NCBI GenBank assembly: GCA_026992315.1
Contig: JALXAG010000279.1
Span: 1-32,309, forward strand
Source of the DNA: Sneathiellales bacterium
GTDB lineage: Bacteria > Pseudomonadota > Alphaproteobacteria > Minwuiales > Minwuiaceae
DNA length: 32,309 nt
Direction of reading: 5' to 3'
Shown here: positions 5,593-25,774 of the stretch, in pieces
How the letters are laid out: every line of letters starts with the position of its first letter
Numbering within the stretch: the stretch's first letter is position 1
Position numbers and translations under genes: made by a program
Notes under the pieces: generated by a model
What the model was told of the DNA's origin: nothing
The model's database searches: none
The model's input: the letters and a program-made list of their open reading frames with translations, nothing else

Positions 5593-6230
5593 CAGAATTC
5601 GATGCCCTTCTGTGCCTTCACCCCGGCGCGGAAGGGATGTTTGATCTGCGTCATCTCGGTCACCAGATCGGCGGCTTCGATCAGGCGATCCTTCGCATTG
5701 CGCCCGGTGACCACCACATGCAGGTCGCGCGGGCGACCCTCCAGAAAGGAGACCACCTCCTCCAGATCGAGATGCTCATAACGCAGCACGATGTTCAACT
5801 CGTCCAGAATGACCATGTCATAGGCCGGGTTATCGCCCCGGCAGGCATCGATCATTTCCTTCGAGACCTCCCAGGCCCGTTCGGCGGCGGCGATGTCGCG
5901 GGCGCGGTCCTGGGTTTCCCAGGTGAAGCCCTCGCCCATGGTGCGGATGGTCACCTGATCGGGAAAACGTTCGAGCACCGCCCGCTCGCCGGTTTCCCAT
6001 TTGCCCTTGACGAACTGCACGATACCGACGCGCATGCCATTGCCGATGGCCCGCGCCGCCAGGCCGAAGGCGGCCGTGGACTTGCCCTTGCCCTTGCCCG
6101 TATGGACAATCAGCAATCCCTTTTCGATGGTCTTGGTCGCGAGTATCTTGTCGCGCGCCGCCTTTTTCTTGCGCGCCTTTTCATTGGCGCGGGCGAATGC
6201 ATCCTCCTGGCGGTCGCCGGTTTCGCTCAT
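5592..6230 (-). CDS. cobO: CobO, cob(I)yrinic acid a,c-diamide adenosyltransferase
   Basis: This 212-residue protein of the CobA/CobO/BtuR family transfers the 5'-deoxyadenosyl group from ATP to the cobalt of cobyrinate diamide. The P-loop is VHTGKGKGKSTAAFGLA, with the core GKGKGKST at residues 45-52. The later stretch DMVILDELNIVLRY fits the Walker B-like segment. I chose the start MSETGDRQE at 6230 because it overlaps the cobN stop as ATGA and is preceded by GGGGAG on the sense strand. A further 20 codons upstream are open but lie within cobN. Basic residues after the start (KARKKKAARDK) are typical of the family N-terminus. Confidence 0.95.
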   Translation of the reverse strand: MSETGDRQEDAFARANEKARKKKAARDKILATKTIEKGLLIVHTGKGKGKSTAAFGLAARAIGNGMRVGIVQFVKGKWETGERAVLERFPDQVTIRTMGEGFTWETQDRARDIAAAERAWEVSKEMIDACRGDNPAYDMVILDELNIVLRYEHLDLEEVVSFLEGRPRDLHVVVTGRNAKDRLIEAADLVTEMTQIKHPFRAGVKAQKGIEF

Positions 6231-9200
6231 GCTGTCTCTCCCCTGATTTCGTCGATGATGGCGCGGGCATGGTTCAGCCGTGGCCGCCACAGGCCCCGTT
6301 CCAGCGCTTCATTGAACTTTTCGGCCATTTCCCGGCGGGCATCGGGATTGTGCTCGCGCAGGAACCGCTCCACCGCCGCATCGCCCAGATAGGCATCGAA
6401 AAGCAGATCGAAATGATGATCCTCGACCACCCTGGCGGTGGCGGCAAAGGCGAAGAGATAATCCACCGTCGCCGCCATTTCGAAAGCCCCCTTATAGCCG
6501 TGGCGCATGGCGGCGCGGATCCATTTGGGATTGGCCGCGCGGGCACGGACGATGCGCCCCACTTCCTCGCGCAGGGTGGCGATGCGCGGCCGTTCGGGGC
6601 GGGAATGATCGTTATGATAGATGGCAGGCTGCCGCCCCGACAGATGGCGCACCGCCGCGGCCATGCCGCCCTCGAACTGATAGTAATCGTCGGAATCGAG
6701 AATGTCGTGTTCGCGGTTGTCCTGATTCTGCACCACCGCCTCGGCCTCGCCGAGACGGCGGGAGAATTGCTTATGGGCAGGGCGCCCCTGCTGCCCGCCG
6801 CCATAGACATAACCGCCCCAGGCCAGATAAACCCCGGCCAGATCGGCATCGTCCTGCCAGCCGCCTTCGTCGATCATCGCCTGCAGCCCGGCCCCGTATG
6901 CCCCGGGTTTGGAGCCGAATACCCGGCTGCCGGCAAGCCGTTCGGCCTGCACCGCCTCCATGCCCGATGCCGCAAGCTCCCGCGCCTCGCGGCGGATGCG
7001 GGCGGCGATGGGATTGATCTCTTCCGGCTCATCGAGCCTTGCCAGGGCGCGCACGGCACTGTCGAACAGATCGATCTGTGCCGGAAAGGCATCGCGGAAA
7101 AAGCCGGATATGCGCAGCGTCACATCGATGCGCGGGCGATCGAGGATATCGGGCGGCAGGATCTCGAAACCGTTGACCCGGCCCGAGCCCTGATCCCATT
7201 GCGGACGCACCCCGATCAGCGCCATGGCCTGGGCGATATCGTCGCCGCCGGTGCGCATATTCGCCGTGCCCCAGGCCGAAAGTGCCAGGGCTCGGGGCCA
7301 GTCGCCATGCTCCTGACGGTGACGCTCCAGCAGCAGGGAGGCGCTTTTCCATCCCAACGCCCAGGCCGCCGGGGTCGGGACGGTGCGGCTGTCGACGGAA
7401 TAGAAATTGCGCCCCGTGGGCAGCACATCGGGGCGGGCACGGGACGGCGCGCCCGAAGGGCCGGGTTCGAGAAACCGCCCCTCCAGCGCCCGAAGCAGCC
7501 CGGCGATTTCCCGCTCGCCGCAGGATTGCAGCAGCGGGCGCAGTTCGTCATCGATGTAACCGAGCACGGCACGGCTCTGTCCCCAGCCATCCTCCGGCCG
7601 CCGCCGCCCGGCGACCAGCTCCAGGGCCAGTATTTCCAGCCGCTCCACCGTATCGCCATGGCTGCGCCAGGCGCCGCACGGAAGATCGCCGAGGACCGGG
7701 GGGCGGGAGCCGGTCCAGGGATCGGCAAAGACACAGTCGAGCGGATCGAACCCTTCGCCCAGCTGCAGATCCGCCGCCAGAGCCCGGATCAGGGACGCAT
7801 TGCGCCCATGCCCGTCATGACGCGGCAGGCGGGTCAGCGCCACCAAAAGCCCGGCAAGCTGTTCGCCCTCCGGTGCCTGGCCGAATACATGCAGCCCGTC
7901 GCGGATCTGCAGTTCCTTCAGTTCGCAAAGATAGTTGTCGATCTTGCTCAGCGCATCCTCGGCGGAGGCATCCTCGCCGATTCCGGCATCGCGGCCCAGA
8001 CCGCTGATGCGCGCCAGCGACAGGATCTCATCGGCCAGATGGGCCAGGCGGCGCGGATCGACCCCGGCGGCATCGTAATATTCATCGACCAGCCGTTCGA
8101 GATCGGCCAGCGGACCGTAGGTTTCCGCCCGCGCCAGCGGCGGCGTCAGATGATCGACGATAACGGCGGCAGCCCGGCGCTTGGCCTGGGTGCCTTCGCC
8201 CGGATCGTTGACGATGAAGGGATAGATATGCGGCAGCGGCCCCAGCACCGCTTCCGGCAGACAGGCGGCGGACAGGGCCACGGCCTTGCCCGGCAGCCAT
8301 TCGAGATTGCCGTGCTTGCCCATGTGAATAACGGCCTGCACGCCGGCGCGGGAGCGCAGATAAAAATAGAAGGCCAGATAACCATGCGGCGGCACCAGAT
8401 CGGGATCGTGATAGGTGCGGACCGGATCGATGTTATAGCCGCGCGCCGGCTGGATGCCGATCCAGACATTGCCGAAACGGTGCAGGGGTAGCACGAAACC
8501 GCCACGGTCCTCATCGAAGAACGGATCCGCCCCGAACGCCCCCCATTGCCCTTCGATCGCCCGGCGCACTTCTGCGGGCAGGGTCTGCCATTGTCGCCTG
8601 TAGTCCTCCGCCGTCATGACGATGCCGCCGTGGCGCCGCCCCGGGGCATTGGTCGGCCCGGCGCGCAGCACATCCATCAGCGCCGCCGCATCCTCCAGAC
8701 CGGCACCGGTATCGTAACCCGCCGCCGCCAGTGCCCGCAGCACCGTCACCGTTCCCGCCGGCGTATCCAGCCCGACGCCATTGGCCAGACGGCCGTCGCG
8801 GTTGGGATAATTGGCCAAAATCAGCGCCACGCGTCTTTCCCCCGCAGGGCTATGGCGCAGCCGCGCCCAAGCGGCCGCCAGCCGGGCGGTAAAACCGATC
8901 CGGTCGGCCACGGGCACATAGCCCGCCAGCGATATCTGACAGCGTTCGTCCCGCTCGGCCTCTCCCTTGAAGGAAACGGCCCGGGCAAGGATGCGCCCAT
9001 CCACTTCGGGCAGGGAAACGTTCATGGCGATATCGCGCGCGCCGAGACCGTTTTTCCCCTGCCGCCACAACGCTTCGCCACTGGCGGAAAAAATCACCTG
9101 CAGAACCGGACAGTCCGCCACATCGAAGGGCCCCTGCCGCCTGCCCGCGCCCGGGGCGGAGACGGCGAAGGATGTGGCATTCAGAATGATGTCGGGGGGA

Positions 9201-9958
9201 TTCCTGCGCAGGAGATCCGAGACGATTCCTGCCGATACCGGTTCTTTCAGGCTCTGGGCGAAAATGGGCAGAACATTCATCCCCTGCCCCTTCAGCGCCG
9301 CGATCAGGGCATCCACCGCCGCCACATTGCCCGCCAGCGCCAGTGCCCGGTAGAAGACCAGCGCCGCCAGCGGCGCCCCGTCCCGCCAGCCCGCGCGCAG
9401 GGCCTCGATATCCTCCGCCCCGTAAATGCCTGCATTCAGTACCGGCACCGGTTCGCGCCACGATCCGCCGCGCCCCAGCAGATGGGCGGCGAAGTCGAGG
9501 AAGGCGGCGGCATTTCCGGCACCGCCATGAACCAGATACTGCCACAGACGATGACAATCGCCCGCGGGCAGCGTGCTATGGGCGCTCAGCACCGGGTCGG
9601 GCTGATCGTCCCCCGGCAGCATGGCCAGCGGAATGGCGTTTTCAGCACAGATCCTGGTTATTTCCTCGACCCCGTAGCGCCAGTAATCGACACCGCCGAG
9701 CAGACGGACGATCACCAGCTTCGCATGGGCGATGATATCCTCGGCATAGATATCGACCGACAGATTGTGCCCCAGTTGCAGAATGCTGGCCAGGCGCAGG
9801 CTCGGCGCATCCTCGGGGCGATGGCGCTGTGCCGCGGCCAGCAGGGCAAGCTCTGTATCCGCCGCCGAAAGGAAAACGATATCGCCGGGGCTCTGGCCGA
9901 GATCGACGGCCTCGCTGCCATCGTCGACCTGTCCCGGTTTCGCCGCCAGAAGATGCAT
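6227..9958 (-). CDS. cobN: CobN, large subunit of aerobic cobaltochelatase
   Basis: At 1243 residues this is the large subunit of the ATP-dependent CobNST cobaltochelatase, which inserts cobalt into hydrogenobyrinate a,c-diamide. Recognisable family blocks include LANYPNRDGRLANGVGLDTP, HMGKHGNLEWLPGK, KLxDDYY-like VDEYYDAAGVDPRR and ALSAWGTANMRTGGDD. Length is in the normal range (about 1100-1300). It starts two bases after the cobW stop and overlaps cobO by ATGA. The partner subunits CobS and CobT are not in the window and must be encoded elsewhere. The reading frame is intact. Confidence 0.96.
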   Translation of the reverse strand: MHLLAAKPGQVDDGSEAVDLGQSPGDIVFLSAADTELALLAAAQRHRPEDAPSLRLASILQLGHNLSVDIYAEDIIAHAKLVIVRLLGGVDYWRYGVEEITRICAENAIPLAMLPGDDQPDPVLSAHSTLPAGDCHRLWQYLVHGGAGNAAAFLDFAAHLLGRGGSWREPVPVLNAGIYGAEDIEALRAGWRDGAPLAALVFYRALALAGNVAAVDALIAALKGQGMNVLPIFAQSLKEPVSAGIVSDLLRRNPPDIILNATSFAVSAPGAGRRQGPFDVADCPVLQVIFSASGEALWRQGKNGLGARDIAMNVSLPEVDGRILARAVSFKGEAERDERCQISLAGYVPVADRIGFTARLAAAWARLRHSPAGERRVALILANYPNRDGRLANGVGLDTPAGTVTVLRALAAAGYDTGAGLEDAAALMDVLRAGPTNAPGRRHGGIVMTAEDYRRQWQTLPAEVRRAIEGQWGAFGADPFFDEDRGGFVLPLHRFGNVWIGIQPARGYNIDPVRTYHDPDLVPPHGYLAFYFYLRSRAGVQAVIHMGKHGNLEWLPGKAVALSAACLPEAVLGPLPHIYPFIVNDPGEGTQAKRRAAAVIVDHLTPPLARAETYGPLADLERLVDEYYDAAGVDPRRLAHLADEILSLARISGLGRDAGIGEDASAEDALSKIDNYLCELKELQIRDGLHVFGQAPEGEQLAGLLVALTRLPRHDGHGRNASLIRALAADLQLGEGFDPLDCVFADPWTGSRPPVLGDLPCGAWRSHGDTVERLEILALELVAGRRRPEDGWGQSRAVLGYIDDELRPLLQSCGEREIAGLLRALEGRFLEPGPSGAPSRARPDVLPTGRNFYSVDSRTVPTPAAWALGWKSASLLLERHRQEHGDWPRALALSAWGTANMRTGGDDIAQAMALIGVRPQWDQGSGRVNGFEILPPDILDRPRIDVTLRISGFFRDAFPAQIDLFDSAVRALARLDEPEEINPIAARIRREARELAASGMEAVQAERLAGSRVFGSKPGAYGAGLQAMIDEGGWQDDADLAGVYLAWGGYVYGGGQQGRPAHKQFSRRLGEAEAVVQNQDNREHDILDSDDYYQFEGGMAAAVRHLSGRQPAIYHNDHSRPERPRIATLREEVGRIVRARAANPKWIRAAMRHGYKGAFEMAATVDYLFAFAATARVVEDHHFDLLFDAYLGDAAVERFLREHNPDARREMAEKFNEALERGLWRPRLNHARAIIDEIRGETA

Positions 9959-9960
9959 GT

Positions 9961-11016
9961 TCAGGCCGCCGCCCGTGCTGCGGCATCGGTAATGGCCTCG
10001 TGAACCGCCTGGCGGTCGATCCCGTGCAGCCCGATGACCACCAGACGGCCGCGCCGGGCCTCGCCGGCCTGCCAGTCACGGTCGAAATAATGCTGGAAAC
10101 GGCTGCCGACCCCCTGCAGCAGCAGGCGCATGGGCTTGCCCCGCACGGCGAGAAATCCCTTGATGCGCAGGATATCGTGGCTGACGGCCAGATCCTTCAG
10201 CCGGGCGGTCAGCGGTTCGATGGCGGCGATCTCCGCCAGTTCGACCACGAAACTGTCGAAATCATCGTGTTCGTGATCGTCCTCTCCGTCATGATGGGAG
10301 GGACGGGAATGCAAATCCTCCTCCACCGCCGCGTCGAGGCCGATCAGCGCCGTCATGTCGATATCGCCATGGCGGGCCGGCAGCACCCGCACGCCGGGCC
10401 GGGCCCGCCTGCCGAGATCGGCCGTCAACGCTTCGAGCGTGTCCCGGTCGATCATATCCGCCTTGTTCAGGACGATCAGATCGGCACAGGCAATCTGATC
10501 CTCGAACAATTCCTCAAGCGGGCTGACATGATCGAGCATCGGATCGGCCCGGCGCTGTGCCTCCACCGCAGCCGGATCGGCGGCGAACAGACCATCGGCA
10601 AAAGCAGGCCCGTCGATGACCGCGATCACCCCGTCCACCGTTACCCGGGTGCGGATCTGCGGCCAGTTGAAGGCGCGCACAAGCGGCTTGGGCAGGGCCA
10701 GACCGGATGTTTCGATAATGATATGATCGGGCTTTTCTTCCCGGTTCAGAATATTCTCCATCACCGGCAGGAAATCGTCGGCCACGGTGCAGCAGATGCA
10801 GCCATTGGCCAGTTCGTAGACATCCTCCCCGGTGCAGCCGGGATCGCCGCAGCCCTTGAGGATTTCCCCATCGACACCGAGATCGCCGAATTCATTGATG
10901 ATGAAGGCCAGACGCCGCCCCTCTGCCTGATCGATCAGGCGGCGGATCAGCGTCGTCTTTCCGGCGCCGAGAAATCCGGTGATGATGGTTGCGGGAATTT
11001 TCCTGTATTCCGGCAT
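9961..11016 (-). CDS. cobW: CobW, G3E-family GTPase / metallochaperone
   Basis: This 351-residue COG0523 GTPase has the P-loop GFLGAGKTTL (residues 14-23), the metal-binding NGCICCTV with CXCC at 73-76, a NKAD guanine motif (VLNKADMID), and a histidine/aspartate-rich stretch (SHHDGEDDHEHDD) before a CobW C-terminal domain. CobW is thought to deliver cobalt to CobNST, and cobN follows directly. I chose the ATG at 11016 because TTGAGGAGG lies just upstream and the protein then begins four residues before a typical family N-terminus. An in-frame extension to 11190 would begin inside the riboswitch B12 box and is rejected. Expression is likely controlled by the cobalamin riboswitch. Confidence 0.95.
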   Translation of the reverse strand: MPEYRKIPATIITGFLGAGKTTLIRRLIDQAEGRRLAFIINEFGDLGVDGEILKGCGDPGCTGEDVYELANGCICCTVADDFLPVMENILNREEKPDHIIIETSGLALPKPLVRAFNWPQIRTRVTVDGVIAVIDGPAFADGLFAADPAAVEAQRRADPMLDHVSPLEELFEDQIACADLIVLNKADMIDRDTLEALTADLGRRARPGVRVLPARHGDIDMTALIGLDAAVEEDLHSRPSHHDGEDDHEHDDFDSFVVELAEIAAIEPLTARLKDLAVSHDILRIKGFLAVRGKPMRLLLQGVGSRFQHYFDRDWQAGEARRGRLVVIGLHGIDRQAVHEAITDAAARAAA

Positions 11017-11085
11017 GCGCGCCTCCTCAATCGTTGCGGCATCGTTGCGGCCCGACCCTTCACTGCACTGCAGCGACGGCATTTC

Positions 11086-11166
11086 CTGGCCGCGGGATCC
11101 GGCATGCCGGTCCGCCTGGGCGCATCCTGCGCACGGAACGTCTCCCACCGAGGGTTCCGCGGCCAG
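11086..11166 (-). promoter_or_regulatory. Structured leader (candidate riboswitch expression platform)
   Basis: Between the B12 box and cobW, CTGGCCGCGG (sense, complement of 11157-11166) and CCGCGGCCAG (complement of 11086-11095) form a perfect 10-bp GC-only-rich stem enclosing about 60 nt. Inside lie two more palindromic pieces, GCGCATCCTGCGC (plus-strand reading) and CCGGCATGCCGG. No U-run follows the outer stem, so it is not a classical intrinsic terminator. It begins only a few bases after the riboswitch core, the normal place for an expression platform. Confidence 0.55.
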
Positions 11167-11169
11167 CCC

Positions 11170-11395
11170 CGAGGAGGTCTCCTGGCTCATATCCCGGCAA
11201 CGGGCCCCTTCCCGGTTTCACCTGTACGGATCGTCCAGTGGGTTTCGCCCGTCCCCTGGCCGTCTGGCGGCTGCGCCTTCCGGCCGGATATTCACAGTTG
11301 CGGGGGCAGCGCCGGTCTTGGCCGCACCGGATCCTGCAAAAACAGCGATCGCACGGCCGCACCGGACTTCCCTCTTCTCGGGAGAGGCAACCTAA
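11170..11395 (-). promoter_or_regulatory. Cobalamin (B12) riboswitch upstream of cobW
   Basis: Read on the minus strand, the conserved elements appear in order: GGTTGCC (11386-11392), GGGAAGTCCGGTG, the core GCTGCCCCCGCAACTGTGA (11291-11310), CCACTGG (11235-11241, loop element), CCGGGAAGG (11207-11215), and the B12 box AGCCAGGAGACCTCC (11173-11187). This matches the cobalamin riboswitch consensus closely. It lies about 150 nt before the cobW ATG and should repress the cobW-cobN-cobO-cobQ operon when cobalamin is plentiful. Unusually, a 12-bp segment (TCCGGTGCGGCC) is present twice, 35 nt apart. Removing one repeat unit would restore a canonical spacing to the core. Confidence 0.93.
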
Positions 11396-11417
11396 CACGG
11401 AAAGAACGCCGCCGCCA

Positions 11418-11459: not shown

Positions 11460-12170
11460 TCAGAAGCGTGAAAAACGCACCCGCATCTGCCCGGCATCGT
11501 CCTGATGCCAGCCCGTGCCGGTCCAGCCATCGCCAAGAAGCCGTGCAATCCCGTCAAGATCCTCTGCTGCGACCAGGCGTTCCTGCCCCGCCGGCCGGGG
11601 CTGCGCCGCCACCATGTCCGCCGCCATGTCCCGGTAGAGGACGAAGCGGGCCAGCCCGCCGTATTTACGCGCCAGGCCGCTGATATGCAGACCGCATTTC
11701 ATCAGGCTGCGCCAACTGGCGTAATTGCGCGGATCGACCGTCGAGACGACATGGCGGCGGCCCAGTGCCAGCGCCTGTTCCATGCGGAAGCGGGTCAGGA
11801 AATACTGAATGCGCCGGCCGCGGCAGGCGTGATCGACGGTGGCGCCTGCCAGATGGGCCACTTCGGGCCAGTCCTTTTCCGCCAGCCCGGCATCGGGGCC
11901 GAGATTATAGCCCCCGGGACGCGGCAGGCCGAGCACCGCATAGGCCATCATCGCCCCCTTTTCGTCGAACAGGCCCCATATCCGCCCGCGAAAACCGAGA
12001 TGCTCGCGAAAGAAATCGTCCGTGTCGGGCTTGACCAGACCGGCAACGGGGGCCGTTCTGAGCGCCGCCTTGTGCAGGGCGACGATCGCGGCGAGATCGT
12101 CCTCGCCGAGGCGATCCAGGTAGAGACCCTGCGCTTCCCCCTCCGTCAGCAATTCACCCCGGCAGGCCAT
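11460..12170 (-). CDS. GNAT-family N-acetyltransferase
   Basis: This 236-residue protein resembles GCN5-related acetyltransferases. It has a central strand AYAVLGLP, then HLAGATVDHACRGRRIQYFL with an acetyl-CoA-loop-like RGRRIQ segment, followed by VVSTVDPRNYASWRSLMKCGL, the usual C-terminal asparagine/serine region (NxxSxxxxxKxGF form). The substrate cannot be inferred. It is the last gene of a four-gene cassette and begins two bases after the stop of the substrate-binding protein gene (TGA TC ATG), with AGGATTG as a modest ribosome site. A TTG two codons upstream could also initiate. Its stop lies about 65 bases before the cobalamin riboswitch. A role in modifying a small ligand handled by the cassette is inference only. 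Confidence 0.8.
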   Translation of the reverse strand: MACRGELLTEGEAQGLYLDRLGEDDLAAIVALHKAALRTAPVAGLVKPDTDDFFREHLGFRGRIWGLFDEKGAMMAYAVLGLPRPGGYNLGPDAGLAEKDWPEVAHLAGATVDHACRGRRIQYFLTRFRMEQALALGRRHVVSTVDPRNYASWRSLMKCGLHISGLARKYGGLARFVLYRDMAADMVAAQPRPAGQERLVAAEDLDGIARLLGDGWTGTGWHQDDAGQMRVRFSRF

Positions 12171-12172
12171 GA

Positions 12173-13183
12173 TCAATCCTCGATCACTTCGGCATAGTTG
12201 AGCAGATTGACCGGCGGATAGATGCCGAGGCGACGGGCCACCTTCATACGGATAATCAGGCTGAAGCGTTTCAGGGTTTCGATCGGCATGTCCGCCGGAT
12301 TGCGCCCTTCCACCAGAATCTGCTGTGCCTTGAAGGCGGTCAGCCGCCCGACATTGTAATAGCGCGACACCAGCCCCATCAGCGCATCGGCGCTGCGGAT
12401 CGACAGTTCGGCCGCGGCAAAGGTCGGCAGCCCCGCCTCCAGCGCCAGCCGGGTATAACGGCGGCGGTGAACGCCGATAAACGTATCCGGACCGATATAG
12501 AGCATATCGACCCTGGCCTGCGCCGCCTTGTTCACCAGCCCCGGCAGGGCATCCGGATCCGGCTTGCCATCGCCATCGAGGGGAACCGGCAGGTCGAGCA
12601 CGGAAAACCCCATTTTCCGGCCGAGATCGATCAGCCGGCCGGTAATGGCGACGGAATTTTCCTCAAGCGGATTGTAGATCGAGCCCAGCGTCTTCAGCGT
12701 CACATAGGATTGAATGGCCTTGATCTGCGTCGGCAGGGGCACGATGTGGGTCACACCGGTGACATTGCGCCTGGAGGAGGAAAAATCAGGCACCACCCTG
12801 GCGCCGTCGGGCGAGGAGACCATGGTGAACAACACCGGGATATCGGTAATGTGGCGGGCGGGATCGACGGCATCGTAAGGCCCCACCACCCCCAGTGTCG
12901 TCGGCGTCCCCCAGGTGTAGACGAGATCCGGCTTCAGCCGGCGGATCTCGGCCACGAAGCCGGGGATGCGGCTGCGTTCCCGCTCCAGGCTGCGCACGGT
13001 AAGCTCCACGGGAATATTGTGCTCGGCCAGATAATCCTTGAATCCGGTCTCCACCTCGGTCGGACCGCGCCATAACAGCATATAGATGCGATAAGGCGGT
13101 GCCGCCCCCGCCAGGGATCCGAACCCCGCCGCCGCGGCCGTCGTGGCCATGGCGGACAACAGGCTGCGCCGGCTCACCTTCAT
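12173..13183 (-). CDS. Orphan periplasmic substrate-binding protein (PF04392-like), Tat signal
   Basis: This 336-residue protein starts MKVSRRSLLSAMATTAAAAG, a twin-arginine-type signal ending near AGAAPP (residues 25-30). The mature part fits the ABC_sub_bind family (TrpX-like, PF04392): a first lobe with ELTVRSLER and LKPDLVYTWGTPTTL, then PVLFTMVSSPDGARVV, NVTGVTHIVP, and a second lobe with VDMLYIGPDTFIG, GLPTFAAAELSIRSADALMGLV and a C-terminal YNVGRLTAFKAQQILVEG. The ligand is unknown; characterised relatives bind tryptophan or other amino acids. No ABC permease or ATPase adjoins it. Its start overlaps the stop of the sensor-MFS gene (ATGA at 13180-13183), with GGGAGGTG as ribosome site. 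An upstream in-frame extension lies wholly within the MFS gene and is rejected. Confidence 0.85.
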   Translation of the reverse strand: MKVSRRSLLSAMATTAAAAGFGSLAGAAPPYRIYMLLWRGPTEVETGFKDYLAEHNIPVELTVRSLERERSRIPGFVAEIRRLKPDLVYTWGTPTTLGVVGPYDAVDPARHITDIPVLFTMVSSPDGARVVPDFSSSRRNVTGVTHIVPLPTQIKAIQSYVTLKTLGSIYNPLEENSVAITGRLIDLGRKMGFSVLDLPVPLDGDGKPDPDALPGLVNKAAQARVDMLYIGPDTFIGVHRRRYTRLALEAGLPTFAAAELSIRSADALMGLVSRYYNVGRLTAFKAQQILVEGRNPADMPIETLKRFSLIIRMKVARRLGIYPPVNLLNYAEVIED

Positions 13184-15132
13184 TTCTGCACCTCCCGTCC
13201 TGTCCGGGCCGGAAAAAACGCAAACACCAGCGCCAGCAGGATGCCTGCCATGGCTACGATGCTTCCGATACCGGCCATCGCCCAGGCATAGCCCCATTGC
13301 TTGAGCATGGCGGCAACGGCGAACGGCCCCAAAGCCGCCCCCATCCGTTCGAGAAGACGGAAAACGCCGAAAACCGTTCCCTGGCCGATCCTTTGGCATT
13401 CAGCGGCGCAAACCTCCGACACCAGGGCCAGTTGCGGGGCGATGCTGACCGACTGGCCGATGCCCAGACCGACCACCGCCCACAGGATCATCCAGAAGTT
13501 TTCCTCGCGCAGAATACCCGCCATGGCAAGGCCCGATATCAGGCCGCCGAGCGCGACGAACAGGACCCGGTGCCCATACAGATCCGCCAGCCGCGCCGCC
13601 AGGGGCGACAGAACGATCATGGCGATGCCATACACCATCATGACCCGGCCGATCTCGGACTGGCTGCTGTCGAGCAGCGTCAGATAGAGCGGGGCCAGAT
13701 AGAAAAGAAAACCGGTCAGGATCATCTTCGCCGGAATGGCGCCGAAAACCACCAGGGCCAGAAAGCGGAAATTGCCGAGCACGCTGAGCGCATCCGCCCA
13801 TGTGATGCGCCTGACGGAATGTTCGCGGTGCCGGTCGGGGCCGAGAAACTGCAGCACGAACAGAACGGAAAGCAGCGCCAGCCCGGCGCCGACGATAAAG
13901 GTGGCCCTGAAACCGATGCGGTCGGCGAGAACGCCGCCAATAGCCGGCCCGGCAATGGCCGCGGCCATAATGCCGCCGACGAAAATCGCCATGCCCTGGG
14001 CACGGCTGCGGGTATCCGTATTGTCGATCACATAGCCCTGACAGGCGACAAACACGATGCCATAGCCTGCCGCCACCATGATGCGCCACAGCAGCAACTG
14101 ATAGAGATCGCCGGCGAAACCGGTCATCGCCAGCCCGATACAGGAGAGCGCCGCCCCGGTGATGAAGGTGGTGCGCCGCCCGACCCGTTCGGACCAATAC
14201 CCTGCCGGAGGCTGGATCAGGGCCACCACCGCCATGAAAACGGCAATCGGCAGGCCGAGCACGGCTTCTTCGCTCAATCCCGGTACCGGACGGTAGAGAT
14301 CGCGCATATAGACCGGCAGAAAGGGCCGGGACAGTTCCTCGGCAATGGCAAACAAAAACAGCGGCGTGCGGATAAACACAAGGGAACGTCGCGGCGACGC
14401 CGGGGAAAGCGACCGGTCATCGCCGTCCGTTGCCACGGGGGGATGCATGGCCCCGAAATAGGCATTGGAAAATTTTCCCCACAACCAGCTCAGCGGTGCC
14501 CTTCTGCCCCCGCCCTGATCGACACGGGCAAAAAACCCGTGCAGCGTGTGCACGGGCCCCGACACGCTGGTCGTGATCAGAAACAACAGCAGTTCGAAGG
14601 CGATCAGCACAGAAACGATGAAGACGATAAAGACATCGAAAAACATGCTCTCCAGCGCCCGCGAGATGAAGGCGCGATCCACCCCGACATGCAGAAAGCC
14701 TGCCACGCCATCCGGCCCCCTTACAGGCAACTGTGTATCGTAATAGGCGGCACCGGCCAATGCCCCGCCACTGCCCGCGCGAACCGTGCCTTCCCGCCAG
14801 TTTTCGGGCAGATTACCGTAGGAATAGAGGATTTTGCCCTGCCTGTCGGTCGCGGCGATATAGCGCAGTTCGCCGTTATCGCGCATGGCGGCGGCAAAAA
14901 GATCATCGACCCCACGCAGCTTTTCATAGGGAATTCTGTAGCCCAGCGCCTTTTCGATGGGGGCGAGAACGGATCGGCCGATCGTCTGTGCCTTGCTTTC
15001 CAGTTCGGGAACCAGATTGCGCTCGAACAGACGCAGGGCGATAACCGATACGGCCAGGGATGCCACAAGCAACGCGACGATGGTGATGGCGAACAGCCTG
15101 GCATTGAGCCCGCTGCCGGTTGCAGCCTTCAT
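13180..15132 (-). CDS. Periplasmic sensor domain fused to an MFS transporter
   Basis: This 650-residue protein has two parts. Residues 1-250 look like a receptor: membrane segment 12-34, a periplasmic domain of about 135 residues with RYIAATDRQGKILYS (sCache/PAS-like), a second membrane segment 173-197, and a short HAMP-like linker (TTSVSGPVHTLHGFFARVD). Residues 260-645 are a complete 12-helix major facilitator transporter, with motif A in GYWSERVGRR (321-330) and a second copy-like segment in ARLADLYGHR. No kinase, cyclase or chemotaxis output domain is present, so the transporter itself takes the place of the output. Substrate and direction are unknown. Both ends overlap neighbouring genes by ATGA, suggesting coupled translation with the sensor protein before it and the binding protein after it. 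Confidence 0.88.
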   Translation of the reverse strand: MKAATGSGLNARLFAITIVALLVASLAVSVIALRLFERNLVPELESKAQTIGRSVLAPIEKALGYRIPYEKLRGVDDLFAAAMRDNGELRYIAATDRQGKILYSYGNLPENWREGTVRAGSGGALAGAAYYDTQLPVRGPDGVAGFLHVGVDRAFISRALESMFFDVFIVFIVSVLIAFELLLFLITTSVSGPVHTLHGFFARVDQGGGRRAPLSWLWGKFSNAYFGAMHPPVATDGDDRSLSPASPRRSLVFIRTPLFLFAIAEELSRPFLPVYMRDLYRPVPGLSEEAVLGLPIAVFMAVVALIQPPAGYWSERVGRRTTFITGAALSCIGLAMTGFAGDLYQLLLWRIMVAAGYGIVFVACQGYVIDNTDTRSRAQGMAIFVGGIMAAAIAGPAIGGVLADRIGFRATFIVGAGLALLSVLFVLQFLGPDRHREHSVRRITWADALSVLGNFRFLALVVFGAIPAKMILTGFLFYLAPLYLTLLDSSQSEIGRVMMVYGIAMIVLSPLAARLADLYGHRVLFVALGGLISGLAMAGILREENFWMILWAVVGLGIGQSVSIAPQLALVSEVCAAECQRIGQGTVFGVFRLLERMGAALGPFAVAAMLKQWGYAWAMAGIGSIVAMAGILLALVFAFFPARTGREVQK

Positions 15133-15944
15133 GAACGCTCCCTTTCCTTGCCGACCAGCAGGGGCACGACGTTCGATCCCCCGGCATGCACATCCTCTCC
15201 CTTGCCGTCATGGCTGCCATCCCCGGTCGGATCGGCCGTTGCATCCTCCGCTGCGCCCTGCCCGGCATCGGCGGCATCCCCACCTTCCCCGGTCGCGGTT
15301 TCATCGCTTTCCGTTTCAGAGATGGCAGTGCCGGTCTGCCCGTAAGGATTCATGCCCCGGGTCAGCAGCAATACGGCCAGGGCGGCGGCAAAAACCGAAA
15401 TGCCGAAAACGATGGCTGAATATTCGGCCAGCTCGCGGCCGATTCGTTGTAATTCGGCATCGAAATAGGATTTTGCATAGCGAATGGCCAACCCGCCGGA
15501 TAGCCTGCCGAAATTATTGCTGATCGGCACGCCGACCAGAAAACTGTCCTTGTCGTTCAGCTCCCAGGCCTTGCCTTTGGCATGGCGCAGGGCATCCAGC
15601 AGCTTCGGCGACACCTTCGCACCGGCCCCGCCCGGGCGGGTGCTGTAAAGCACCGTGCCGTCCGTATCGAAAATCTCGATGCTCAGAATCTGTTCGTCCC
15701 GCCGCCTTTCGCGCGTGATCAGATCCTGCATGTTCTTCAGGGCCGGCAGCGGAAGGCCGATATTCATGCCTGTTTCCGCCGCCGCCTTCAGATCCCGGGC
15801 GATGACCTCGAATTTGGAACGCTGCAGGGCGCTGAATGTTTTTTCATACTTGAAATAATTCAGCAGGGAAATCAGCACCAGGGAAAACCCCAATACCAAA
15901 ACAATGGCAGCAAAGGCTTTGGCGGCAACGCCAAATCTCGCCAT
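15129..15944 (-). CDS. Two-helix membrane sensor protein without output domain
   Basis: This 271-residue protein has a membrane segment at 9-31, a periplasmic domain at about 32-175, a second membrane segment at 176-195, and an acidic, glycine-rich, probably disordered cytoplasmic tail (205-255). The periplasmic domain is related to that of the downstream sensor-MFS protein: IARDLKAAAETGMNIGLP, LSIEIFDTDGTVLYST and a final GGLAIRYAKSYFDAEL can be aligned by eye with the corresponding stretches there. It has no kinase, HAMP or methyl-accepting module. I chose the ATG at 15944 because GGAGGGG precedes it. An upstream in-frame extension of 27 codons lacks such a site. It is the first gene of the cassette. 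It may be a co-receptor for the MFS fusion, which is inference. Confidence 0.82.
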   Translation of the reverse strand: MARFGVAAKAFAAIVLVLGFSLVLISLLNYFKYEKTFSALQRSKFEVIARDLKAAAETGMNIGLPLPALKNMQDLITRERRRDEQILSIEIFDTDGTVLYSTRPGGAGAKVSPKLLDALRHAKGKAWELNDKDSFLVGVPISNNFGRLSGGLAIRYAKSYFDAELQRIGRELAEYSAIVFGISVFAAALAVLLLTRGMNPYGQTGTAISETESDETATGEGGDAADAGQGAAEDATADPTGDGSHDGKGEDVHAGGSNVVPLLVGKERERS

Positions 15945-18045: not shown

Positions 18046-19026
18046 TCACAACCGTTTGCGCAGGGCTTCCTTCACCCGCTCATCGGCAAAGGCAGCATCG
18101 ATCGCCATGGCCGTGATCCTGCGAAGCGCCGTTTCATCGAGCGCGAAATGCTCCGCCGCCCGGGCATATTCCCGCCCGATGCTGGTATGGAAATAGGGCG
18201 GATCGTCCGAGTTTAGCGACACCCGACACCCCGCCTGCAACAGCTGCGGCAGCGGGTGGCTGTCATAATCATCGTAAACACCTGTTGCGATGTTGCTGCC
18301 GGGGCAGACCTCCAGCATGATGCCACGGGCGGCAATCTCCTCGATCAGGGCCGGATCCTCCACCGCCCGCACGCCATGCCCCAGCCGCGACACCGGCAGG
18401 CTGTCGAGTGCGGCGCGCACGCTTTCGGCACCGCAGACCTCGCCCGCATGCACGGTACAGGACAGACCGTTGTCATGGACCAGACGGAATGCCGGGGCGA
18501 AATCGGCGGGAGAGAATTGCGCCTCGTCCCCGCCCATGCCGAAACCGACCACATAGTCATGGGGATGGGTCACCACCTGCCGGGCCACCTCCATTGCCCG
18601 CTCGGGGCCGAAATGGCGTACACAGGTGACGATCAGCCGCCCGGTTATGGCGAAATCCCGTGCGGCATCCTCGATGCCTGCGGCAATACCGTCAAGATGC
18701 GCACCATAGCTCATGCCATTGGCGGCGGCATGATCGGGCGAGGACATCACCTCGACATAGATCGCCCCTTCCGCCGCACAGGCGCCGAGATATTCATAGA
18801 CCACATCGCGATAATCCCGCGGCGTCCGGATGACGGCGGAGGCTAGATCGTAAGCTTTCAGGAAATGCCGGAAATCGCTCCACAGGAAACCGCCGCGATC
18901 GTCGAACAGCCCCTCCGGCAGCGTCATGCCGTTGCGCCTTGCCAGACGGCGCACCAGACCGGGGCCGGCGGCGCCTTCCAGATGGCAATGCAATTCCGCT
19001 TTCGGCACGTCCCGGGCCGCCGTCAT
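18046..19026 (-). CDS. add: Adenosine deaminase
   Basis: This 326-residue metal-dependent amidohydrolase has the zinc-binding HxH in LHCHLEG (residues 13 and 15), the HAGE motif ([12 protein letters not shown]), LGHGVRA, and [10 protein letters not shown] with the zinc-ligand aspartates. It deaminates adenosine, and possibly deoxyadenosine, to inosine, which is a substrate of the phosphorylase encoded two genes upstream. Adenine deaminase is a close family member and cannot be fully excluded, but the nucleoside operon favours adenosine. Its start overlaps the deoB stop (ATGA at 19023-19026). It is the last gene of the operon. Confidence 0.9.
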
Positions 19027-20222
19027 ATCATCGCTTTTCCGTGATCGAGCGGCGCGATCCCCAGATGGGCCGCGATCGTCTGGCCGATATCGGCAAAGCT
19101 GTCGCGCCGCCCCGCCGGACCGGGCGGCACCGCCGGCCCGAAGAGGATCGCCGGCACATATTCGCGCGTATGATCCGTACCGGCGAAACAGGGATCGCAG
19201 CCATGATCGGCGGTAATCACAACCATATCCCTGTCGCCGAGCAAGGCCTGCAGTTCCGGCAGGCGGGCATCGAAGGCCTCCAGCGCCCGGGCATAGCCTT
19301 CCGCATCGCGGCGATGGCCGTAGAGCATGTCGAAATCGACGAAATTGGTAAATATCAGTGCCCCGTCAGGGGCCTCCGCCACGGCGGTCAGGGTTGCATC
19401 GAACAACGCCTCGTTGCCATCGGCCTTGATGCTGCGCGTTATGCCGCGATGGGCATAGATGTCGGAGATCTTGCCGATGGCGATCACCTCATGCCCGGCC
19501 TCCTGCAACCGATCCAGCAATGTCGGGGCGGGCGGCGGCACCGCATAATCGCGCCGATTGCCGGTCCTTTGAAAATCCGCCGCGCTCTTGCCGATAAAGG
19601 GCCGCGCGATCACCCGGCCGATATTGTATGCATCGACCAGCCTGCGGGCGATCAGGCAGGTTTCATACAACCGCCCGAGGCCGAAATGCGCCTCATGGGC
19701 CGCGATCTGAAATACACTGTCGGCTGAGGTATAGACGATGGGCTTGCCGGTCCGGATATGTTCCTCTCCCAGCCGGGCAATGATCTCCGTGCCCGAAGCA
19801 TGGCAGCAGCCCAGCACGCCGGGCAGCCCCGCCCGCTCGATCAGCTCCTCGATCAGTTCCGGGGGAAAACTGTTTTCCGGATCGGGGAAATAGCCCCATT
19901 CGAACAGCACCGGCACGCCGGCCATCTCCCAATGGCCGCTTGGCGTATCCTTGCCCCGGCTACGCTCCGCCGCCCAGCCCCAGCGCGCTTTTGGACCGGC
20001 GGATCCGGGCATCAGCGTTGGTACATGCACGCCGCTGGCCCCTTCCAGCGCCGCGCCGAGACCCAGCCGGGACAAATGCGGCAGATGCAGCTTCCCCCCG
20101 TTGCGGGCACGATGGGAGGCGATGGAGCCCAGCGTATTGGCCCCGTCATCGCCGAAGGCCATGGCATCGGGTGCCGCGCCGATACCGAGGGAATCGAGCA
20201 TCAGCACGATGGCGCGGCTCAT
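19023..20222 (-). CDS. deoB: Phosphopentomutase
   Basis: This 399-residue enzyme of the alkaline phosphatase superfamily converts (deoxy)ribose 1-phosphate to the 5-phosphate. The N-terminal metal-binding [13 protein letters not shown] has Asp10. [12 protein letters not shown] contains the phosphorylated threonine region, and [17 protein letters not shown] and [20 protein letters not shown] give the C-terminal metal ligands. Length is normal. I chose the ATG at 20222 because it overlaps the stop of the phosphorylase gene as ATGA. The 60 upstream in-frame codons lie within that gene. It processes the sugar phosphate released by the neighbouring phosphorylase. Confidence 0.95.
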
Positions 20223-21046
20223 TGCCCGTCTCCCAATTGCGCAAGAAAGCGCCGGAGCAGCCTTTCCAGCCGGGATGCCGCCTCGGCGCTTTCGCTCAGC
20301 GTTTCCGCATGGCTCAGGGCATTTCCGGTCATGCCGGCCGCCAGATTGGTGATCGTCGAGACCGCCGCCACCCGCATGCCGCAATGCACCGCCGCCAGAC
20401 ATTCGGGCACGGTGGACATGCCGACCGCATCGCCCCCCAAAACACGTATGGCGCGGATCTCCGCCGGGGTCTCGAAATTCGGCCCCAGACAGAAGAAATA
20501 CACCCCTTCATGCAGATCGATCCCCTCCCCTGCCGCGGCATCGCGCAACAGGGCCTGCAGTTCGGGATCGTAGGCGCGGGTCATGTCGAAGAAGCGGGGG
20601 CCCACCGCCGCGTCATTGGCACCGGCCAGCGGGCTGATGCCTGTGAAATTGATATGATCGGTGATCATCATCAGGCTGCCCGGCGGCATATCCTCATGCA
20701 GGGAGCCGGCGGCATTGGTCAGCAGCAGCGTCCTGCAGCCGATGCCATGCAGCAGGCGTACGGGTATGGCCAGATCGCGGGGATCGTGGCCTTCATACAG
20801 ATGCATGCGCCCCTGCATGCAGGCAACGGTGCAACCGCCAAGATCGCCGATGACCAGCCGCCCGGCATGGCCCTGAATGGTGGGCACGGGGAAGCCCGGC
20901 AATTGATCGTAGGGAACGATCAGCGGGTTTTCGATCTTTTCGGCCAGGGCACCGAGGCCGCTGCCCAGAACCAGGGCCACGGCCGGCCTTCGACCGCCGA
21001 GGCGGGAGAGAACCGTTGCAACGGCCGCATCGTGGGACGATGCCAT
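20219..21046 (-). CDS. punA: Purine-nucleoside phosphorylase (trimeric type)
   Basis: This 275-residue protein cleaves purine nucleosides with phosphate to free base and (deoxy)ribose 1-phosphate. It has the phosphate-binding LGSGLG (27-32), QGHAGR with His60, TNAAGSL (110-115), [11 protein letters not shown] with Glu192 corresponding to human PNP Glu201, GMSTVPE (209-215) and STITNLAAG with Asn234. The Glu and Asn pair indicates the 6-oxopurine (inosine/guanosine) trimeric class rather than the hexameric DeoD class. It starts one base after the permease gene and overlaps deoB. Confidence 0.93.
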
Positions 21047-21047
21047 T

Positions 21048-22019
21048 TCAGCGTTCCTTCACATAGGGCACGCCAATGGCCTTGGGGGCCACCGCCTTGC
21101 CGATGAAGCCCGCCAGCAGCACCACCGTCAGCACATAGGGCAGAGCCTGGATGAACTGCACGGGAATTTCGCCGATCAGCGGCAGGGACACCCCCTGCAG
21201 GCGGATGGCGACGGCATCGAGAAAGCCGAACAACAATGCCGAAAGCATCGCGGGCACCGGACGCCACTTGCCGAAAATCAGCGCCGCCAGGGCGATAAAG
21301 CCCTTTCCCGCCGTCATCTCGCGGATAAAGCCCGCGCTCTGCGCCGTTGCCAGATAGGCCCCGGCAACCCCCGTCAGCACCCCGCCGCAGGCCAGGGCCA
21401 TATACCGCATTTTCGCCACGGAAATACCGGCGGTATCCACCGCTTCCGGGTTTTCGCCGACGGCGCGCAGCCTCAGGCCGAAGCGGGTACGATAGAGGAT
21501 CCACCAGACCAGAGGCACCGCCAGAAAGGCGGCATAGACGAGGATATTGTGTCCGCTGAGCAGCTCCGAATAGATGCCGCCGATCACCGGCACATCGGCC
21601 AGGGCCGCCGCCCCCGGAAATTCGAGCGACTGGAACCGGGCCGATGGCGGCAAGGGCGGTGTCTGTCCGCCACGCGAAAACCAGGCGATGCCTAGAATGA
21701 CCGTCAGCCCCGAGGCCAGAATATTGATGGCGACACCGGAGACGATCTGATTGCCGTTATGGGTGACACAGGCGAAGCCGTGCACCATCGCCAGGGCCAT
21801 CGACACGCCGACCCCCGCCAGCAGGCCGATCCAGACCGATCCCGTCACATAGGCTGCGGCGGCGGAAGCGAAGGCTGCCGCCAGCATCTTGCCCTCCAGC
21901 CCGATATCGACAACGCCGGAGCGTTCGGAAAACAAACCCGCCAGCGATGCCAGCACCAAAGGCACCGAAACCCGCAGCGTCGAATCCAGTATCAGAATGA
22001 ACAAGGTGAAATAATCCAT
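21048..22019 (-). CDS. Nucleoside ABC transporter permease (NupQ-like)
   Basis: This 323-residue integral membrane protein belongs to the branched-chain-type permease family (BPD_transp_2). It carries the characteristic ERSGVVDIGLEGKML (residues 32-46) and a cytoplasmic coupling region RAVGENPEAVDTAGISVAKMRY. With the other permease and the double-ATPase it would form the inner-membrane channel of a BMP-type nucleoside importer. Its ATG lies one base past the stop of the other permease gene. The final residues KAIGVPYVKER are short and cytoplasmic. Assignment to nucleosides rests on the BMP protein and the salvage enzymes in the same operon. Confidence 0.9.
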   Translation of the reverse strand: MDYFTLFILILDSTLRVSVPLVLASLAGLFSERSGVVDIGLEGKMLAAAFASAAAAYVTGSVWIGLLAGVGVSMALAMVHGFACVTHNGNQIVSGVAINILASGLTVILGIAWFSRGGQTPPLPPSARFQSLEFPGAAALADVPVIGGIYSELLSGHNILVYAAFLAVPLVWWILYRTRFGLRLRAVGENPEAVDTAGISVAKMRYMALACGGVLTGVAGAYLATAQSAGFIREMTAGKGFIALAALIFGKWRPVPAMLSALLFGFLDAVAIRLQGVSLPLIGEIPVQFIQALPYVLTVVLLAGFIGKAVAPKAIGVPYVKER

Positions 22020-22020
22020 C

Positions 22021-23148
22021 TCAACCCCCGGCCCGCATCAGGGCAATCCGCCGGAATATCGCCAGCAATTGCGGCTTGAACAGATATTCGAGCGCGCCGG
22101 CGAACAAAATGACCAGCCCCTGGATCACCACCACCAGATCGCGTGTGATCCTGGGAAATTCGAACGACAATTCCGCCCCGCCCTGATAGAGCGCGCCGAA
22201 CAACAGCGCCGCCAGCAGAATGCCGACCGGATGGCTGCGCCCCATCAGCGCCACGGCAATGCCGACGAAACCGTAACCGGCGGTGAAGTTCAGCAGCAGG
22301 CGGTGCTGCACGCCGAGGATTTCATTGAGGCCGAGAAACCCGGCCAGCGCGCCGGAAATCAGCATGGAAATGATGATGTTGCGCACCGGGGAAATGCCGG
22401 CGTAACGGGCGGCATTCTCGTTCTGACCGACCGTGCGCAGCTCATATCCCCAGCGGGTATGCCAGATGAACAGCCACACCAGCACCAACAGCGCCAGCGC
22501 CCACAGAAAGGACATGTTCAGCGGCGAGGGCTCGAAGGATATCCCGAACCAGCCGAGCATCTCGTGGATGAAGGGCAGCCAGGCGTTCTCGGCAAATTCA
22601 CGGCTTTCCGGCGACATCTGCCCCGGCTTGATAAAGATATTGACCAGCAGATACACCATCAGGGTCGAGGCGATGAAATTGAACATGATGGTGGTGATGA
22701 CGATATGGCTGCCGCGTTTGGCCTGCAGATAGGCGGGAATAAAGGCCCAGGCCGCGCCGAACAGGCCCGCCGCGATCATCGCCAGCGGCAGGATGACGTA
22801 GAAGGGCTGCCCGTCGAAGGCCAGCACCACCAGCCCGACCCCCAGCCCGCCAAGATAGGCCTGGCCTTCGCCGCCGATGTTGAACAGGCCGCAATGAAAG
22901 GCCACTGCCACCGCCAGGCCGGTGAAGATGAAATTGGTGGTGTAGTAGAGGGTATAACCGATCGCTTCCTGAAAACCGAAAGCGCCCCAGAGCAGCACCT
23001 TCACCACTTCAAGGGGGTTTTCGCCGATCAGCACCACGACCAGCCCGCCGACCAGCAGCGCCACGATCACATTGATCGCAGGCAGCAGGGCGATTTCCGC
23101 CCATCGCGGCAGGCGCCCTTCCTTCAGAACACTCGATGCGGTACTCAC
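22021..23148 (-). CDS. Nucleoside ABC transporter permease (NupP-like)
   Basis: This 375-residue, multi-helix permease has the family stretch HCGLFNIGGEGQAYLG (about 85-100) and the coupling segment RTVGQNENAARYAGISPVRN. The start is GTG at 23148, overlapping the ATPase stop as GTGA, and the first residues MSTASSVLKEG are cytoplasmic. It pairs with the shorter permease downstream, as in the nupOPQ and yufOPQ type systems. Confidence 0.9.
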   Translation of the reverse strand: MSTASSVLKEGRLPRWAEIALLPAINVIVALLVGGLVVVLIGENPLEVVKVLLWGAFGFQEAIGYTLYYTTNFIFTGLAVAVAFHCGLFNIGGEGQAYLGGLGVGLVVLAFDGQPFYVILPLAMIAAGLFGAAWAFIPAYLQAKRGSHIVITTIMFNFIASTLMVYLLVNIFIKPGQMSPESREFAENAWLPFIHEMLGWFGISFEPSPLNMSFLWALALLVLVWLFIWHTRWGYELRTVGQNENAARYAGISPVRNIIISMLISGALAGFLGLNEILGVQHRLLLNFTAGYGFVGIAVALMGRSHPVGILLAALLFGALYQGGAELSFEFPRITRDLVVVIQGLVILFAGALEYLFKPQLLAIFRRIALMRAGG

Positions 23149-24770: not shown

Positions 24771-24781
24771 TACGGCCTACT

Positions 24782-25774
24782 TCAGAAGTCGCACTTATTG
24801 TCGGACATATAGTCATGAACCTTGATCTTGCCGGCAATGATATCCGCTTCGATCTGGTCCATGCGTGCCTTCATTTCCGGCGTGATCAGGCTTTTGTTGT
24901 ATTGATCGAGCGCCCAGCCGACACCGCCTTCCTTCAGGCCGAGAACCTGAATGCCCGGCTTCCAGGTGCCGTCCATCGCCGATTTGAACACGTTATAGGC
25001 GGCGATATCGACCCTTTTCAGCATCGACGTCAGAACCGAGCCCGGATGCAGATAATTCTGGTTCGAATCGACGCCGATCGACAGCTTTCCGGCATCCGCC
25101 GCCGCCTGCAGAACGCCGAGCCCGGTACCGCCCGCGGCAGCATAAACCACATCGGCGCCCCGGTCGAACTGCGATTTGGCCAGCTCGCCGCCCTTGACGG
25201 GATCGTTCCAGGCCGCCGGCGTCGTGCCGGTCATGTTCTGAAATACTTCGGCCTTGGGATTGATGTATTTCACCCCCTGCACATAACCGCAGGCAAATTT
25301 GCGAATCAGCGGAATATCCATGCCGCCGACGAAACCGACCTTGCCGGTCTTGGAGGCCATGGCCGCCAGCGCCCCGACAAGGAACGAACCTTCATGCTCC
25401 TTGAAGACGATCGACTGCACATTGGGCAGATCCACCACCATGTCGATGATCGCAAAACGCTGCTTGGGGAATTTCTTGGCGACCTTCTCCATGGCCGGGG
25501 CCTGGCCGAAACCGACGCCGAGAATCGGATCGCCGCCGCGCCGGGCAAAATTCATCAGCGCCTGTTCGCGCTGGGATTCATTGGTAATCTCGAATTCCCG
25601 GTATTTGATGCCGGTTTCCTTGCGGAATTTTTCGACTCCGTTGAAAACCCCTTCATTGAAGGATTTGTCGAACTTGCCGCCCATATCGAACAGAACGGCA
25701 GGTTTGATTTCCCCTGCCTGGGCAGCGCCACCGGCCAGCAACAATGCCGCGGCGGCAAGAAATATTTTTTTCAT
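24782..25774 (-). CDS. BMP-family nucleoside-binding protein
   Basis: This 330-residue periplasmic protein starts MKKIFLAAAALLLAGGAAQA, a Sec signal with predicted cleavage after AQA at residue 20. No lipobox cysteine is present, so it should be soluble. The mature protein opens PAVLFDMGGKFDKSFNEG, the BMP/PnrA/Med signature of purine nucleoside-binding proteins, followed by GVGFGQAPAME, GKVGFVGGMDIPLI and VDSNQNYLHPGSVLTSML. It is the first gene of the nucleoside operon. I chose the ATG at 25774 because GGGGAG lies 8-13 bases upstream; an upstream in-frame ATG at 25816 would spoil the signal peptide. Confidence 0.92.
   Translation of the reverse strand: MKKIFLAAAALLLAGGAAQAGEIKPAVLFDMGGKFDKSFNEGVFNGVEKFRKETGIKYREFEITNESQREQALMNFARRGGDPILGVGFGQAPAMEKVAKKFPKQRFAIIDMVVDLPNVQSIVFKEHEGSFLVGALAAMASKTGKVGFVGGMDIPLIRKFACGYVQGVKYINPKAEVFQNMTGTTPAAWNDPVKGGELAKSQFDRGADVVYAAAGGTGLGVLQAAADAGKLSIGVDSNQNYLHPGSVLTSMLKRVDIAAYNVFKSAMDGTWKPGIQVLGLKEGGVGWALDQYNKSLITPEMKARMDQIEADIIAGKIKVHDYMSDNKCDF

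Follow-up and report, generated by a model that had tools for sequence, protein, structure and literature searches.

Four consecutive genes on the minus strand of a 32,309-nucleotide stretch of DNA from a Sneathiellales bacterium (assembly GCA_026992315.1, contig JALXAG010000279.1, positions 1 to 32,309; hereafter the window) look like an undescribed receptor-transporter module. Namely, a gene for a membrane sensor (SEN) is followed by one in which a Cache-type sensor domain is fused to a transporter of the major facilitator superfamily (MFS), by one for a periplasmic substrate-binding protein (SBP) and by one for a GNAT-like acetyltransferase, and the first three of these stand together in 22 loci of other genomes as well. 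Every part comes from a known family, and the coupling of a receptor to a transporter and that of a binding protein to a receptor are each already known separately. What is new, as far as the open-access literature goes, is a fused Cache-MFS protein with an orphan binding protein of Pfam family PF04392, conserved in several classes and tied into partner switching and type VI secretion (T6SS); searches of open-access papers, including those for MFS with Cache or HAMP, PF04392 orphans, T6SS with SpoIIE or MFS, and partner switching, returned no description of such a module. Our preferred reading, which we put at somewhat short of an even chance, is a complex of receptor and transporter: SBP would hand an amino-acid-like ligand to the SEN/Cache pair, and this pair would gate, or read the flux through, the MFS domain. 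The features in question are the following.

15129..15944, minus strand: SEN, 271 amino acids, assigned from its translation, AlphaFold model, Foldseek matches, transmembrane (TM) helix prediction and homologues in the same position in about 25 loci
13180..15132, minus strand: Cache-MFS fusion, 650 amino acids, with TM1, an sCache domain, TM2, a degenerate HAMP-like linker and a 12-helix DHA1-type MFS domain (Pfam, AlphaFold, Foldseek)
14632..15039, minus strand: Cache domain of the fusion, about residues 32-167 (Pfam sCache_3_2 at 37-163; AlphaFold model)
13213..14382, minus strand: MFS domain of the fusion, residues 251-640 (conservation in 31 loci; nearest structures VMAT2, NorA, MdfA and EmrB)
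12173..13183, minus strand: SBP, 336 amino acids, orphan PF04392 (ABC_sub_bind) periplasmic binding protein with a Tat-like signal
11460..12170, minus strand: GNAT-like acetyltransferase, 236 amino acids, optional fourth gene of the cassette
15129..15132, minus strand: ATGA start/stop overlap of SEN and Cache-MFS, kept in many relatives
13180..13183, minus strand: ATGA start/stop overlap of Cache-MFS and SBP, kept in many relatives

These positions, both overlaps and the 2-base gap between SBP and the GNAT gene (12171-12172) agree to the base with those in a first-pass annotation, made by a model from the letters of the window and their open reading frames. A scan for promoters and terminators gave signals no better than in shuffled sequence.

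The case for a module rests above all on conservation. We fetched neighbourhoods in other genomes by searching with SEN or Cache-MFS and scanned them with profiles built on the first homologues; the samples surveyed comprised 385 genomes of Alphaproteobacteria and 399 genomes across the phylum. The 22 additional loci that hold all three of these genes side by side, SEN, Cache-MFS and SBP (L019, L020, L024, L026, L027, L031, L055-L061, L063, L065, L066, L074, L075, L078, L080, L081 and L083, where L numbers are our handles for loci) belong to Alphaproteobacteria, to three betaproteobacterial metagenome-assembled genomes (Burkholderiales) and to Gammaproteobacteria including Vibrio. Gene order and overlaps are the same in other classes, at a median identity of 22-34%, and short overlaps between consecutive cassette genes recur widely. 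Variants exist, too. In L061 SBP stands ahead of SEN; in L062 and L064 one ATP-grasp gene stands between a divergent SBP and the other genes; L023, L025 and L029 have SEN/Cache and SBP with no MFS in the set; and four loci (L018, L022, L067, L068) are cut by contig ends. What is more, SEN, Cache and MFS form a single protein adjoining SBP in L076 and L077, the same fusion occurs with a more distant SBP in L032 and, much diverged, in L030, and those of L076, L077 and L032 have 14 predicted TM helices. In view of these fused proteins, it is reasonable to propose that paired sensors control an MFS, and the ligand-gated transport suggested in the first-pass annotation is to this extent partly supported.

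The genes have also diverged together: pairwise divergences correlate at 0.89 for SEN and Cache, 0.85 for Cache and MFS, 0.78 for MFS and SBP, 0.76 for SEN and SBP and 0.86 for MFS and GNAT (Mantel p about 0.001). With the three-gene unit in 22 further loci, the fusions and this co-divergence in hand, we reject chance clustering. The first-pass annotation had proposed a search for the same gene order elsewhere and had named two findings that would speak against it, MFS and sensor homologues that never occur together and an ABC permease and ATPase near the binding protein in relatives; the core genes do occur together, and no TrpY-like permease turned up in any cassette locus. Its four-gene cassette stands as far as SEN, Cache-MFS and SBP are concerned, which recur as a unit, while the GNAT gene is an optional fourth member outside the core, with homologues in 10 other cassette loci (L019, L020, L027, L057, L058, L061, L065, L078, L080, L083). 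In the window the Pfam matches of this protein are weak (0.0016, under the cut-off), and its homologue in L080, from Azospirillum, passes the cut-off.

One could still argue that we are dealing with a plain drug or metabolite efflux operon with unrelated passengers and vestigial Cache domains. DHA1-type MFS proteins and GNAT enzymes are common in resistance loci, after all, and close relatives of the MFS half exist as stand-alone proteins (for example in L082, at 44% identity). However, a three-gene unit with fusions, co-divergence and T6SS or SpoIIE contexts in many genera is not what one would expect of passengers, and we disfavour this explanation as very improbable. The prevalence of the module is modest and patchy: strong matches occur in 22/385 sampled Alphaproteobacteria, two or three of them with no recognisable Cache half in the match, and in 8/399 sampled genomes across the phylum. 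None of the eight other genomes searched from the window's own family has a SEN homologue, which suggests horizontal spread of the cassette.

Turning to the individual proteins, SEN consists of a TM helix (residues 10-28), a periplasmic Cache domain, a second TM helix (177-195) and a cytoplasmic tail (198-271). Its sequence matches no Pfam family, the best being dCache_1 at 0.007, and it is the AlphaFold model, built on an alignment of 4 sequences, that has a Cache domain between the two TM helices, with block means of pLDDT (AlphaFold's per-residue confidence) of about 80-93 across most of that domain. The nearest structures found with Foldseek are the extracellular Cache domains of WalK, CitA, DcuS and DctB. 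The tail falls below a pLDDT of 50 and is thus disordered, as the first-pass annotation had it. That annotation had also called the two periplasmic sensor domains paralogous, and SEN and the Cache domain of Cache-MFS are indeed weak paralogues, matching at an E-value of about 1e-4. Both proteins have the periplasmic Cache fold flanked by two TM helices that defines a Cache receptor, and neither SEN nor Cache-MFS of the window carries a cytoplasmic signalling output domain (kinase, chemotaxis, cyclase or phosphatase). A role in anti-phage defence is rejected: a PADLOC search gave no match, and SEN has no phage match.

The full 12-helix MFS transporter that had been read into the second gene is borne out by Pfam (MFS_1, 6e-45) and by the AlphaFold model, and the sensor half matches sCache_3_2 at 1e-5, just below the cut-off of that family. 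The MFS half is DHA1-like. Namely, its nearest relatives are VMAT2, NorA and EmrB by sequence and VMAT2, NorA and MdfA by fold (Foldseek, TM-score to target about 0.8-0.87), and motif B (R350) and motif C (GPxxGG, which varies among relatives) are both present in the window protein. Among 31 loci, the residues kept include R350 in TM4 (30/31), R377 (31/31), G399 (31/31), R592 (30/31) and E595 (29/31), together with a TM1 acid (E266 in 24/31, E265 in 22/31), a set that one expects in a working transporter. In a tree of MFS proteins, no sister with good support was recovered for the window branch. DHA1 proteins are proton antiporters and mostly exporters; for this reason, export or drug-type antiport is a better guess for the direction of Cache-MFS than uptake.

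As for SBP, its membership in PF04392 is clear (1e-23, 84 bits against a cut-off of 25.9). The nearest entries in the PDB are CD0873 (6hni), VC_1101 (3lkv) and SP1069 (3lft), which hold tyrosine, phenylalanine and tryptophan, and specificity in this family is set by two residues, Glu-263 and Tyr-279 of CD0873 (PMC6816091). At these positions the window protein has, by our reading of the alignment, Ala and Tyr, the same as the phenylalanine-binding VC_1101. Elsewhere the pocket is not the same, however (DN to DT), so the ligand may be something other than a plain aromatic amino acid. The cassette proteins also carry motifs of their own (TWGT, GxDxF and E259). Of the Tat signal previously assigned to this protein, a plausible motif (SRRSLL) remains, with a score below threshold and with variation among relatives: a clear RR in L027 and none in others.

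That SBP comes with neither ABC permease nor ATPase holds in the window cassette, no TrpY-like permease lies near any cassette locus, and we reject a hidden ABC partner. The Bmp-type ABC system further along the window (21051-25816) is likewise rejected as a partner, being complete with its own binding protein. The same genome encodes a second PF04392 protein on contig C262 (L033, 9069-11946), and there an ABC ATPase and a permease follow it to make a complete TrpXYZ-like set, in contrast to the orphan of the cassette.

An orphan binding protein closely linked to an MFS gene could also mean that SBP delivers its ligand for uptake, with the Cache domains as mere docking platforms, which would make the cassette an MFS counterpart of the TRAP and TTT transporters. 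A stand-alone MFS gene that adjoins two PF04392 genes in L079 would fit such an importer. That said, the nearest DHA1 antiporters (VMAT, NorA, MdfA, EmrB) are mostly exporters, the neighbours of the cassette are signalling rather than catabolic genes, and L023, L025 and L029 keep SEN/Cache and SBP with no MFS in the set, so the link between SBP and the sensor is independent of the transporter. Taken together, we consider an importer unlikely.

The signalling neighbours deserve a closer look. SpoIIE phosphatases adjoin the cassette in 11 loci (L027, L032, L055, L056 and L059-L065, by Pfam or, for L059 and L063, by similarity), STAS antagonists lie near 6, RsbW-like ATPases near 6 and adenylate cyclase-type proteins near 5. 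A second SEN gene often has a different Cache protein as its partner. In L062 (6637-9549, minus strand) and L064 (14218-17130, minus strand), that partner is a 971-residue protein running from Cache-HAMP to HAMP-SpoIIE, in which a phosphatase replaces the MFS. In L027, L057, L058 and L063 it is a diverged Cache-MFS', with a decayed MFS domain, adjoining SpoIIE or adenylate cyclase. The following twin Cache proteins have decayed MFS-like domains.

L057, 4451-6343, minus strand
L058, 12081-13970, plus strand
L063, 12137-14161, plus strand

Because second SEN genes pair with HAMP-SpoIIE or decayed-MFS Cache proteins, the SEN/Cache pair appears to be a receptor joined to varied outputs, of which the MFS is one, and the twin proteins are possibly transporters turned receptors. 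Indeed, one may ask whether the cassette MFS itself has ceased to transport and does no more than sense at the membrane, in the manner of UhpC with UhpB. The decayed twins beside SpoIIE or adenylate cyclase point in that direction, as do the swapped outputs, where the receptor does without an MFS. On the other hand, the copies linked to SBP keep their motif residues nearly invariant (R377 in 31/31, for example), and the window cassette contains no other output gene, which leaves this alternative improbable.

Enzymes recur beside the cassette as well, in the form of three types of carboxylate-amine ligase: ATP-grasp_4 (L057, L058, L080, L083), the D-Ala-D-Ala-ligase type (L030, L062, L064) and GCS2 (L032). 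One could therefore envisage an autocrine or quorum-type circuit, in which an amino-acid-derived compound, the product of the GNAT enzyme, the ligases or both, leaves the cell through the MFS and is detected outside by SBP together with the Cache pair, with feedback on export or, elsewhere, on SpoIIE partner switching, on cyclic-nucleotide or cyclase outputs or on T6SS. If true, chemical signalling of this self-contained form would be of a new kind. The recurrence of the ligases, the GNAT homologues in 10 other loci, an amino-acid type of SBP family and an exporter type of MFS all fit. Most loci have no ligase, however, the window has the GNAT gene alone, and the ligases could equally modify proteins, all of which makes such a circuit rather doubtful.

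Two further kinds of gene were seen in these neighbourhoods. In two genera, SBP and the SpoIIE phosphatase are separated by a protein like ketopantoate hydroxymethyltransferase (L056, 5677-6663, minus strand; L059, 6949-7914, plus strand). Secretin-family genes lie directly upstream of the cassette in betaproteobacteria (L018, 3-2696; L020, 4053-7160) and downstream of it in L066 (4719-6890).

A second recurrent context is T6SS. Cassette and sheath gene TssC occur together in 13 genomes or replicons, and in 9 of these, from 7 genera, they are no more than 25 kb apart; random placement would bring them this close with a chance of roughly 1-3% per genome, and a crude binomial estimate at genus level comes to about 2e-9. 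In L074, L075 and L081, SBP is directly followed by VgrG, DUF6931 and TssA; in L076 and L077 the cassette sits between ClpV and an FHA gene; and in L026 Hcp genes adjoin it. In Vibrio sp. THAF190c, the cassette heads the T6SS operon, with SEN, Cache-MFS, SBP, VgrG, DUF6931, PAAR, TssA, Hcp, the sheath genes and then TssF, ClpV, SBP_bac_3, FHA, TssK and TssM on one strand, and a receiver-DUF3369-HD-GYP protein and a kinase divergent from it. We note that these T6SS clusters contain a second periplasmic binding protein (SBP_bac_3), next to ClpV or to the SBP of the cassette (L085, 9718-10488, minus strand; L076, 6584-7306, minus strand).

As a general function of the module, T6SS is rejected. 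Its presence does not track the cassette among Alphaproteobacteria (6/22 against 63/363, Fisher p=0.25), and the window genome has no TssC and no T6SS, nor a SpoIIE protein above threshold; T6SS is thus one use of the module and not its definition. Since the module often sits in SpoIIE/STAS/RsbW, adenylate cyclase and HD-GYP/kinase loci and in T6SS operons, its role is probably one of signal transduction as well as transport. In particular, because one Vibrio has it at the head of a T6SS operon and many Alphaproteobacteria have it beside SpoIIE/STAS switches, it is a concrete candidate for an upstream sensor of these systems.

How might the receptor-transporter complex that we prefer work? Gene order, domain content, conservation, fusions, neighbourhoods and folds are what the analysis shows, and the mechanism is what we infer: SEN would pair, probably as a heterodimer, with the N-terminal half of Cache-MFS to give a periplasmic Cache receptor. 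SBP, once exported, would capture an amino-acid-like ligand and dock on this heterodimer, and the resulting conformational change would travel by way of TM2 and the HAMP-like linker into the DHA1-type MFS domain, switching its proton-coupled flux, probably efflux. Conversely, the receptor may sense the state of the MFS domain. In many relatives the receptor pair would also, or instead, drive SpoIIE phosphatase/STAS/RsbW partner switching or adenylate cyclase, or it sits in a T6SS operon, whereas in the window genome the transporter would be the only output in the cassette, with the GNAT enzyme probably modifying the transported compound. If this is true, the fusion of a receptor domain to a transporter, linked in turn to a binding protein, offers a direct, kinase-free way for a periplasmic signal to set flux.

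Several points weigh against this mechanism, whose least secure steps are the docking of SBP and which way information runs between Cache and MFS. The structure predictions are of single chains, which leaves the heterodimer and the docking as proposals; the Cache-MFS model was built from 4 sequences and has a mean pLDDT of 67; the window protein has a degenerate HAMP-like linker, with weak HAMP matches in homologues; and we know of no other case in which a Cache/HAMP rod would signal into an MFS domain. What is more, shared genome ancestry accounts for part of the co-divergence.

It is instructive to compare the cassette with known systems. In sugar-phosphate sensing by UhpB/UhpC, an MFS protein is the receptor that works with a membrane sensor kinase; there, however, the MFS protein is separate and devoid of a Cache domain, there is no SBP and the output is a kinase, whereas in the cassette Cache and MFS share one chain, an SBP is linked and the core is kinase-free. 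DcuS/DctA and DcuS/DcuB likewise pair a Cache sensor physically with a co-sensing transporter, and DcuS is among the Foldseek matches of SEN, but their transporter is neither of the MFS nor fused, their sensor is a histidine kinase and no binding protein takes part. A periplasmic binding protein feeds a membrane sensor in LuxPQ, TorT/TorS and ChvE/VirA, yet with kinase output, binding proteins of other families and no MFS. TRAP and TTT transporters combine an SBP with a secondary transporter without ATPase, their membrane parts being DctQM or TctAB, with no Cache receptor pair, where the cassette has MFS_1. The TrpXYZ-type ABC systems of PF04392 (SP1069, VC_1101, CD0873) share the binding-protein family with the cassette, which has no permease or ATPase. 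Finally, SpoIIE/STAS/RsbW modules and TagQRST-PpkA sensing in T6SS are regulators of the kind that the cassette adjoins, or whose operons it sits in, as a candidate upstream sensor; to our knowledge, neither includes a Cache-MFS protein or a PF04392 binding protein in its described forms.

Elsewhere in the window, a cobalamin riboswitch (11155-11396, minus strand, 53 bits) lies directly downstream of the GNAT gene and before cobW (9964-11190) and cobN (6230-9958); because it separates these genes from the cassette, we ruled out that the cassette belongs to them. On the other side, 18049-25816 (minus strand) holds a run of genes for nucleoside uptake and salvage, with the Bmp-type ABC binding protein, its ATPase and two permeases, a PNP-type phosphorylase, and further reading frames that resemble phosphopentomutase and adenosine deaminase by sequence.

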